Part shown: one piece after another, positions 38,868 to 62,608 of the stretch | Layout: each line of letters opens with the position of its first letter | Position numbering within the stretch: position 1 is the first letter of the stretch | Source of the DNA: Bradyrhizobium sp. WBOS07 | Lineage (GTDB): Bacteria; Pseudomonadota; Alphaproteobacteria; Rhizobiales; Xanthobacteraceae | Direction: 5' to 3' | Length of the DNA: 64,000 bases | Assembly: GCF_024585165.1 (NCBI RefSeq) | Contig: NZ_CP029008.1 | Location: forward strand, 5,041,501 to 5,105,500 | Notes under the pieces: generated by a model | Database searches by the model: none | What the model saw: only the letters and a program-made list of their open reading frames with translations | What the model was told of the DNA's origin: nothing | Program-made: the position numbers and the translations under genes

Positions 38868-38984
38868 GATGTGTCCTTGAGCAAAGGTGCGGGGATGAAC
38901 CAGGCCTTTGATTAGCCAGCGCAGTCCGGACTGGCAACCGCCTCAGCGTTGCGGTCCGGTCCGCGGACGAAAGGAGGAGCGAGA

Positions 38985-39176
38985 ATGGCGACGGAAGACG
39001 ACGACCGCCCGCGCACGAAGATCAGCCACGAGATCGGACAGGATCTCTCACTGTTGTCGGTCGAAGAACTGACCGAGCGCGTGACCTTGCTCAAGACCGA
39101 GATCGCAAGACTGGAGGAAGCCGCCACCAAGAAGCGCGCCTCGCGCGATGCGGCGGATCATTTTTTCAAGAAGTAG
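38985..39176 (+). CDS. DUF1192 family protein
   Basis: 63 residues, MATEDDDRPRTKISHEIGQD to ASRDAADHFFKK. The ATG at 38985 follows AAGGAGGAG, a nearly perfect ribosome-binding site. The LSVEELTERVTLLKTEIARL segment forms a short coiled coil typical of DUF1192, a small alphaproteobacterial family of unknown function. It lies upstream of the rcdA-like gene, separated by repeats and a probable sRNA. Confidence 0.9.
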   Translation: MATEDDDRPRTKISHEIGQDLSLLSVEELTERVTLLKTEIARLEEAATKKRASRDAADHFFKK

Positions 39177-39246: not shown

Positions 39247-39269
39247 TGCCCTCCGTAGATCTCTCCATT

Positions 39270-39402
39270 GTCATTCCGGGGCGGCGCGTAGCGCCGAGCC
39301 CGGAATCCATAACCCCAAGCCGCTGAAACGGGCAGGCGGGCCACTCCATGTTGCTGTGGCTATGGATTCCGGGCTCACGACTTCGTCGTGCCCCGGAATG
39401 AC
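39270..39402. repeat. Intergenic inverted-repeat element, family B copy 1
   Basis: Left end GTCATTCCGGGGCGGCGCGT, inner arms CCCGGAATCCATAACC and TATGGATTCCGGGCTC, right end TGCCCCGGAATGAC. Other copies: 40299-40417, 51375-51507, 55379-55478. Confidence 0.87.
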
Positions 39403-39454
39403 GGCGGCGAGAGAGACGCCATCGCACCGTACTCGGCCACTGGCCGACATGGCT

Positions 39455-39614
39455 AACGAACCGTCAAAAAAATCGCTCGTTTACTCCAGATTAAGCTTTC
39501 GGGTTTATGACTGGAACTGTCCTCGTTTGGACACCGAGTGGCTCCTGTCCACTCTGTTTGACGCCTCCCTGTTATCAACTTTCAAAGCCGCCGGTCTCCG
39601 GCGGCTCTTTTTTT
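39455..39614 (+). ncRNA. Probable trans-acting small RNA with anti-Shine-Dalgarno loop
   Basis: Within a 591-base gap between DUF1192 and the rcdA-like gene, a strong intrinsic terminator (39587-39614) ends a stretch with no coding frame of its own. Just upstream is a 6-bp hairpin GAGTGG-CTCCTGT-CCACTC (39536-39554) whose loop exposes CUCCU, complementary to ribosome-binding sites. A second CCUCCC lies unpaired at about 39563-39569. This is the design of alphaproteobacterial sRNAs that block translation. The 5' end is my estimate; the tail resembles, from memory, the mmgR/alpha-r8 (Rfam suhB) type, which needs a covariance search to confirm. Confidence 0.6.
39587..39614 (+). terminator. Strong intrinsic terminator of the probable sRNA
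   Basis: Perfect 8-bp stem GCCGCCGG / CCGGCGGC with a three-base TCT loop, followed by TCTTTTTTT. Nothing protein-coding precedes it within about 400 bases on this strand. Confidence 0.92.
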
Positions 39615-39767
39615 GCGTCTATTCCCGGTTGAATTCCTCGGAATGACCCGCGGAAACCATATCCGCGCTTGTCACTGGACTCCGGGTCTCGCCCGCGCAA
39701 TGATTTGTTCATCATAAAGCCGGCGCCGAAGCCGGACAGTCAAACAGTTGCGTAAGAGGCGTTAACC

Positions 39768-40277
39768 ATGGAACGTTTGCAGGCCGACGGCGCTCTCGTT
39801 CAACTGAGCGAGCGGTTCACCAATTCCGCGGCGTTCGGCGTTCTGTTCCGCGAGGGCATGGATCTGGTCGAAGAAACCGCCGCCTATCTCGACGGCGCCG
39901 GACGCACCGAGGCCAAGGCGCTCGACCGTGCCGTCAGCCTCACCTACGCGACCGAGAGCATGCGTCTCACCACCCGCCTGATGCAGCTCGCCTCGTGGCT
40001 GCTGCTGCACCGCGCGGTGAAGGAAGGCGAGATGACGCTTGTTCAGGCCAATCGCGAGAAGACCAAGGTCAAGCTCAGCGCCGCCGATCCCGGCCCCGCC
40101 GACACCATCGAGAAGCTGCCCGCGCAGCTCCAGGACCTGATCCATCGCTCGATGAGCCTGCAGACCCGCGTCCGCCGCCTCGACACCACCATCCACACCC
40201 CGCCGGCCGAGCACGTCGCAATCGGCAATCCGCTGGTGCCGCACCTCAACGCGCTGAAGGCCGCGTTCGAGCGGTAA
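39768..40277 (+). CDS. rcdA: DUF1465 / RcdA-family protein (regulator of CtrA degradation)
   Basis: 169 residues, MERLQADGALVQLSERFTNS to LVPHLNALKAAFER, all-helical. The YATESMRLTTRLMQLASWLL helix and VKEGEM are characteristic of the DUF1465 family, whose best-known member is Caulobacter RcdA. RcdA is an adaptor that helps deliver the master regulator CtrA and other substrates to ClpXP during the cell cycle. The family assignment is firm; orthology of function is likely but inferred. It stands alone, followed by a repeat element. Confidence 0.85.
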   Translation: MERLQADGALVQLSERFTNSAAFGVLFREGMDLVEETAAYLDGAGRTEAKALDRAVSLTYATESMRLTTRLMQLASWLLLHRAVKEGEMTLVQANREKTKVKLSAADPGPADTIEKLPAQLQDLIHRSMSLQTRVRRLDTTIHTPPAEHVAIGNPLVPHLNALKAAFER

Positions 40278-40298
40278 GGTCGATCAACCATCTCGGTC

Positions 40299-40417
40299 GT
40301 CATTCCGGGACGCGCCTCTTGGCGCGGGCCCGGAATCCATACTCCCGATCGTGGTTATGGATTCTCAGATGCGCAATTGCGCATCGTAGCTCGCCCTTCG
40401 GGCGCCCCGGAATGACA
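40299..40417. repeat. Intergenic inverted-repeat element, family B copy 2
   Basis: Begins GTCATTCCGGGACGCGCCTC and ends CGGGCGCCCCGGAATGAC. It carries the 18-bp perfect palindrome GATGCGCAATTGCGCATC at 40368-40385, also found in the copy at 51375-51507. Confidence 0.87.
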
Positions 40418-40430
40418 GCGCGCGATAAAC

Positions 40431-62439: not shown

Positions 62440-62608
62440 TTGCCCCGGCGAGGCTGCGACGTGCGTCAGGAGCCATATATCCCCGGGGCCTTATCGATCC
62501 TTTAGGGAACTGTCCCTGGCCGGGCCCGTGGGCCCGGACATATGGTGCCCACCTACTTTCGTAGGGAACTCCGGGATCGAGTGCTTCAACGGCGTACGCG
62601 GCTTCGCA
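62440..62608 (+). ncRNA. ssrS: 6S RNA (RNA polymerase regulator)
   Basis: Lies between zapA and the folate cyclo-ligase gene, the fixed site of 6S RNA in proteobacteria. The ends pair as an 11-bp closing stem GCGAGGCTGCG (62448-62458) with CGCGGCTTCGC (62597-62607), including two G-U pairs. Further in, CGATCC pairs with GGATCG, and CCGGGCCCGTGGGCCCGG forms an apical hairpin; a large open bubble is left between. Size (about 160-170) fits rhizobial 6S RNAs. It mimics an open promoter and holds sigma-70 RNA polymerase in stationary phase. Exact ends are estimated. Confidence 0.8.

Follow-up and report, generated by a model that had tools for sequence, protein, structure and literature searches.

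The window analysed here is a stretch of 64,000 nucleotides (nt) from Bradyrhizobium sp. WBOS07 (NZ_CP029008.1, positions 5,041,501 to 5,105,500 of the forward strand), and the element in question is a gene for a small RNA (sRNA) located between a DUF1192 gene and a gene of the rcdA family. Rfam RF02356 (BjrC1505) matches positions 39473–39614 with 133.4 bits (E = 6.5e-26, gathering cut-off 50), the whole model is covered, and this is the single BjrC1505 match in the genome. The RNA belongs to an already catalogued sRNA family, the source paper of which is reportedly Madhugiri 2012. A sequence-only reading of the window had proposed a new sRNA with an anti-Shine-Dalgarno sequence and a terminator at this place. 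The RNA and these elements (39536–39614) are borne out, and the family counts as known, not new, because of the RF02356 match at this score. The location between DUF1192 and rcdA agrees with the matches to PF06698 and PF07323, and the non-coding stretch is relatively AT-rich as had been described, with a GC content of 0.50 at 39450–39599 (a local minimum) versus 0.62–0.69 within both flanking genes. The features of the locus are collected in Table 1.

Table 1. Features of the sRNA locus (positions of the window; + is the forward strand).
Feature	Positions	Strand	Remarks
DUF1192 gene, upstream of the sRNA	38985–39176	+	PF06698, E = 3e-25; start codon picked within a longer open reading frame (38949–39176)
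CtrA-type site TTTACTCCAGATTAA (TTTA-CTCCAGA-TTAA)	39480–39494	+	7/8 against TTAA-N7-TTAA; centre at about -31 from the predicted start
Weak -10-like element TATGAC	39506–39511	+	Weak base preference at +26 to +31 from the box, 75 loci
Predicted sRNA, BjrC1505 family	39518–39614	+	About 97 nt, start inferred; Rfam match spans 39473–39614
Hairpin 1 (UGUCC...GGACA)	39518–39533	+	From folding; covariation in helix 1, with 76.9% of cells paired
Hairpin 2 with CUCCU loop (GAGTGG-CTCCTGT-CCACTC)	39536–39554	+	Conserved stem with covariation; sequence of the loop specific to the lineage
Linear anti-Shine-Dalgarno core UUUGACGCCUCCCUGUU, CCTCCC inside	39557–39573	+	Conserved across the aligned loci
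Intrinsic terminator AGCCGCCGG-TCT-CCGGCGGCT plus CTTTTTTT	39586–39614	+	Helix 3, 97.8% of cells paired
rcdA-family gene (DUF1465), downstream of the sRNA	39768–40277	+	PF07323, E = 2e-58; PDB 3ctw (RcdA), E = 5e-35

CtrA is the master switch of the cell cycle, and the RcdA family acts as an adaptor for CtrA proteolysis. The sRNA sits directly beside the gene for this adaptor. The catalogued RNA has neither a regulator nor a function in the literature found, as far as the accessible parts of these papers go, and a conserved CtrA-type site would make it part of the circuit that runs the cell cycle. Papers are cited below by PMC number.

CtrA recognises the consensus TTAA-N7-TTAA, which is given as TAA-N7-TTAAC in PMC3616915. 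This site, exact or with one mismatch, is present in 96 of the 99 RF02356 loci when the match plus 30 nt is considered (43 exact). A scan with the bare core of the RNA gave at least 118 further-analysed loci, 115 of them with enough upstream sequence for counting the box, and the counts for core-selected loci refer to those listed. At least 7 of the 8 half-site positions are matched in 112 of these 115 (74 exact) within a 34-nt zone, the distance of the site from the RNA being nearly constant, whereas random zones of the same loci reach this level in 0.57% of cases and the exact site in 0.27%. Half-site spacings other than 7 yielded 0–2 exact sites, with 46 near matches at spacing 3 and 29 at spacing 6. 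Base composition was analysed for 80 of the 118 loci, of which 75 could be aligned; the half-sites carry 1.3–2.0 bits versus 0.06–0.91 bits for the spacer, and the half-site values are inflated because only loci with at least 7/8 were aligned. The same alignment contains a weak, -10-like TATNAY at +26 to +31 from the box. As a negative control, the loci of the suhB sRNA family were examined, and the site at 7/8 or better was observed in only 1 of 30 (random 120-nt zones, 1.2%). No promoter was found when the stretch was scanned with the sigma-70 consensus; the CtrA-type site and the weak -10 element emerged by comparison.

The RF02356 model begins some 45 nt ahead of the predicted start, which brings the promoter site into it, and from the sequence these first 45 nt or so look like promoter rather than RNA. 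The position of the box at 39480–39494 leads to a predicted start at about 39518 and an RNA of about 97 nt, which probably is the true 5' end and would correct that of the Rfam family. The start near 39455 suggested by the sequence-only reading falls upstream of the promoter. That reading had also voiced a hunch of cell-cycle control, which gains from the CtrA-type site in the predicted sRNA promoter. The sRNA promoter is newly recognised as one that is probably CtrA-driven, judging from its sequence and conservation.

The RNA itself is structured. Its folding energy is -45.5 kcal/mol versus a shuffle mean of -33.3 kcal/mol (z = -3.1, with 3 of 200 shuffles equally good). For the alignment of RF02356 loci, 17 of the 99 were left out first, mostly weak or aberrant ones, although two of them (L033 and L122) score well; 57 were kept after the further removal of near-identical loci. 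The structure string was set by hand on a MAFFT alignment that is imperfect at hairpin 1 (Table 1). Over 59 diverse sequences the three stems show 90.4% standard pairs, and slid controls drop to 35–53%. Changes on both sides occur in 15 of the 20 stem pairs, a number reached by none of 500 shuffles; of five covariation measures, four lie above every one of the 500 shuffles and the fifth is reached by 2. The stems are thus conserved and compensated among relatives.

The linear core and the hairpin loop behave differently. The core (GCCUCCCUGUU; GCCTCCCTGTT exact) is kept in 64 of the 70 RF02356 loci from the window's bacterial family and in 22 of the 29 from outside, whereas the CUCCU loop of hairpin 2 is found in 64/70 and 3/29, respectively. 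Conservation of the anti-Shine-Dalgarno loop holds within the window's family but hardly beyond it, and the loop is ruled out as a general seed. Among 117 listed core-selected loci the CUCCU loop occurs in 27; the pattern used to collect these loci leaves out most of the window's own family.

Of 100 genomes from the window's family, 85 have an RF02356 match; in the class, 30 of 289 genomes have one at E ≤ 0.001, above the cut-off in 14 of those. When 30 loci of the window's family were fetched, RcdA adjoined in 30/30 and DUF1192 in 29/30. The core-selected loci listed include Mesorhizobium, Phyllobacterium, Devosia, Bosea and Roseibium, and also Hyphomicrobium, Brucella/Ochrobactrum, Microvirga and Sneathiella. 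With two clean RcdA queries, 107 of 118 have rcdA downstream in the same orientation (for 6 of the other 11, the sequence available downstream is shorter than 1.2 kb), and DUF1192 lies upstream in 57 of 118 (two queries). A second model, R1, was built from the RNA part alone without the promoter; it matches 65 of the 289 class genomes at E ≤ 0.001 and, in a distant family (f39), 15 of 17 genomes. Close upstream, a box of at least 7/8 was present in 37 of the 48 weak or distant R1 loci examined, including 15/15 of f39, whereas 2.5–2.9% of random 80-nt zones hold such a box. The RF02356 model scores the Sinorhizobium meliloti-type, Shinella and f39 members below its cut-off or not at all. A conserved CtrA-type promoter site would join the BjrC1505 family with the SmelC671-type and more distant members. 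Family membership, the presence and conservation of the promoter site, the structure and the synteny are direct results of these computations.

Seven of the 11 box-less R1 loci (L303, L314–L317, L320, L324) share GACGUGAAGCCUCCCUGU and a terminator, with a box of only 4–5/8; this sRNA-like group, weakly matched by R1, seems to be a different one. G309, G100 and some other genomes have more than one R1 match, possibly paralogues. The sRNA is not universal with rcdA: core and box were found at 7 of 30 PF07323 loci within about 1.5 kb upstream, in an eighth genome (G156) the RNA lies just beyond the stretch examined, and the other 22 yielded nothing better than E = 5 with R1, some of these genomes having an R1 match elsewhere. 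R1 did not match the Sphingomonas rcdA record, and no RF02356 match was obtained in any of the 14 control genomes searched, including Caulobacter vibrioides, which does match PF07323.

In S. meliloti Ak57 (CP090106.1), the gap between DUF1192 and rcdA contains an exact box, an R1 match of 34.3 bits and a terminator, and the RNA predicted there, counted from box + 38 through the last T of the run, has a length of 100 nt. An exact box is also found in Shinella and in a second Sinorhizobium. SmelC671 (= Sm84) is 100 nt by deep sequencing (PMC2873474); sm84 was assigned to the interval bounded by SMc03988 and SMc03989, listed at about 110 and about 80 nt, and given a sigma-70 promoter (PMC2573895), and has been described with a conserved single-stranded CUCCCUGU motif and relatives in Bradyrhizobiaceae (PMC3927594). 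The CUCCCUGU motif is present in the window between hairpin and terminator (core at 39557–39573). 6S RNA lies about 13 kb from the Ak57 homologue on the opposite strand, and in strain 1021 coordinates about 14.3 kb from SmelC671, also on opposite strands (PMC2873474). From length, motif and place, the window RNA is very probably a homologue of sm84/SmelC671. Both have the single-stranded motif, variable hairpins, a terminator and a Rhizobiales-wide distribution, whereas the available descriptions of sm84/SmelC671 name neither a CtrA site nor rcdA, unlike the family as analysed here. Literature tying the BjrC1505/sm84 RNA to CtrA was not found in a search that mostly left out subscription journals. 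CP090106.1 (3.7 Mb, labelled pSymB) carries rcdA, rpmE and 6S and looks like a chromosome filed as a plasmid.

For CtrA activation, repression and targets, we infer the following mechanism, which we hold to be likely as a whole. An RNA of about 97 nt would be transcribed from its own sigma-70-type promoter, activated by CtrA binding at about -31, and its own terminator would stop the transcript before rcdA. The core GCCUCCCUGUU would pair in trans with Shine-Dalgarno sequences of the type ACAGGGAGG and block translation, the hairpins mainly protecting and presenting the linear core, and the likeliest targets would be mRNAs of periplasmic solute-binding proteins. If the promoter is CtrA-activated, the RNA would therefore act while CtrA is active.

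The upstream region of rcdA has been studied in relatives. In S. meliloti, CtrA binds the rcdA promoter region by chromatin immunoprecipitation (ChIP), but CtrA depletion leaves rcdA unchanged (PMC4433202); the conserved sRNA site is a possible reason for this occupancy without a change of rcdA. Agrobacterial rcdA has several starts, and the genes studied have their CtrA sites farther upstream than is the case in Caulobacter (PMC10469942). We suggest that an sRNA promoter in the rcdA upstream region would fit both sets of findings. A wider proposal, offered tentatively and with more doubt than confidence, is that an ancient CtrA-driven sRNA across much of Alphaproteobacteria is hidden in the presumed rcdA promoter and links nutrient uptake with the cell cycle by shutting down the translation of solute-binding proteins while CtrA is active, so that part of the CtrA-binding and start signals credited to rhizobial and agrobacterial rcdA belong to the sRNA.

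It is unlikely, though it deserves some weight, that the RNA acts in cis as an attenuated 5' leader of rcdA, with terminator readthrough by a CtrA-driven transcript setting RcdA levels and the sRNA as a by-product. The same-strand position of rcdA directly downstream in 107 of the 118 listed loci is consistent with a leader, as is the absence of a further CtrA-type box between terminator and rcdA in the window (best 5/8). Elsewhere, a second CtrA-type box lies between terminator and rcdA in 59 of the 107 listed loci, about 100–270 nt before the RcdA match (43 exact), and the Ak57 locus also has one nearer rcdA, some 140 nt ahead of the rcdA start versus about 310 nt for the box of the sRNA; a separate box for rcdA argues against a leader, and so does the unresponsiveness of S. 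meliloti rcdA to CtrA depletion (PMC4433202). Moreover, the RNA is kept without a nearby rcdA match (L034–L036; L175, L219 and L270 with more than 5 kb downstream), in G140 rcdA is about 41 kb away from the RNA, and the single-stranded core and the strong terminator are both kept.

Somewhat less probable still is that the CtrA-type site serves rcdA only, or represses, with the sRNA being constitutive or stress-controlled. CtrA can also repress, which counts for this possibility. The sm84 promoter, in addition, was described solely as sigma-70 in the accessible part of PMC2573895. The box, however, keeps a near-fixed distance from the RNA, the terminator stands between box and rcdA, and loci without a nearby rcdA match (L034–L036) keep the box exactly. 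That the RNA is of the suhB/mmgR type (RF00519), as the sequence-only reading had proposed, is very improbable, with remote common ancestry at most: the common 3' plan CCUCCCU-ACUU-terminator and weak cross-matches (suhB 23.9 bits in the window, R1 on some suhB loci) face a score below the gathering value of 41, two above-cut-off suhB matches elsewhere in the genome, and 29 of 30 suhB loci without a CtrA-type box.

Candidate targets of the proposed trans-acting sRNA were sought with ACAGGGAGG-N3-11-ATG, which occurs 5–14 times per genome in six genomes of the own genus versus 0–1 for the reversed pattern. In f39, 49 ACAGGGAGG matches were obtained; 2 of them are antisense of the sRNA itself (G388, G398) and were excluded from the proteins counted, and 19 of the 28 proteins examined are solute-binding proteins. 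In the set of relatives, about 17 of 48 encoded proteins at ACAGGGAGG sites are solute-binding proteins (a sum of families that should not overlap). Solute-binding proteins were 1 of 20 at other GGGAGG sites in the own genome (25 of 33 families listed), and 5 of 16 at the near-miss ribosome site ACAAGGAGG in f39. This ACAAGGAGG control dropped 14 of 30 loci (open reading frames below 90 amino acids), and the test set dropped 1 of 30 plus one duplicate.

Several observations weigh against the preferred mechanism. Outside the genus, the ACAGGGAGG count is 0–1 in three genomes, no better than the control. The solute-binding proteins from the set of relatives are not independent because the set holds orthologues (10 clusters), which also inflate its Fisher p of 0.007; for f39, p = 0.02 becomes 0.09 with Pfam-matching proteins only. 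Part of the signal is a trait of solute-binding-protein genes, because ACAAGGAGG sites also mark many of them, and the target claim is lowered since this control is itself rich in such proteins. In the own genome, ACA precedes GGGAGG at 4 of 242 sites, no enrichment over the roughly 5 expected with the 48 HNN triplets taken as equal, and duplex energies of five own-genome sites (-20.6 to -30.8) overlap those of 29 controls (-17.0 to -30.3). The window's own CtrA-type box has one mismatch, and the CtrA ChIP signal need not be the sRNA's because of the rcdA-proximal boxes at 59 loci. On balance, a role of the core as a ribosome-site blocker is plausible, mRNAs of solute-binding proteins are modestly supported as candidate targets, and the regulon as such is a hypothesis.

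Similar modes of action have been described. CcnA of Caulobacter crescentus also uses a C-rich sequence, in a loop, on ribosome-binding regions (PMC8959179), and a CtrA-type site at the promoter, as for CcnA, was found here (7/8 in the window). CcnA differs in being 182 nt long, at the replication origin and with a CCCC loop (PMC8959179); the likeness is in the proposed mode of action, and homology is not claimed. AbcR1/2 and NfeR1 likewise inhibit the translation of ABC-transporter mRNAs, NfeR1 with anti-Shine-Dalgarno motifs on mRNAs of solute-binding proteins (PMC8844928), whereas they are of other families with other promoters, and their descriptions, in the portions available, show no CtrA link. 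suhB/mmgR RNAs share CCUCCCU upstream of the terminator. EcpR1, GspR and PmaR were set apart as relatives by their loop motifs, places or distribution, so far as the accessible text describes them. Around the locus, palindromic repeats (GTCATTCCGGG...CCCGGAATCCAT) flank the sRNA–rcdA unit on both sides (39260–39412 and 40291–40420), and, at a distance of about 23 kb from the sRNA, a 6S RNA lies at 62448–62608 on the + strand (RF00013, 91.6 bits).
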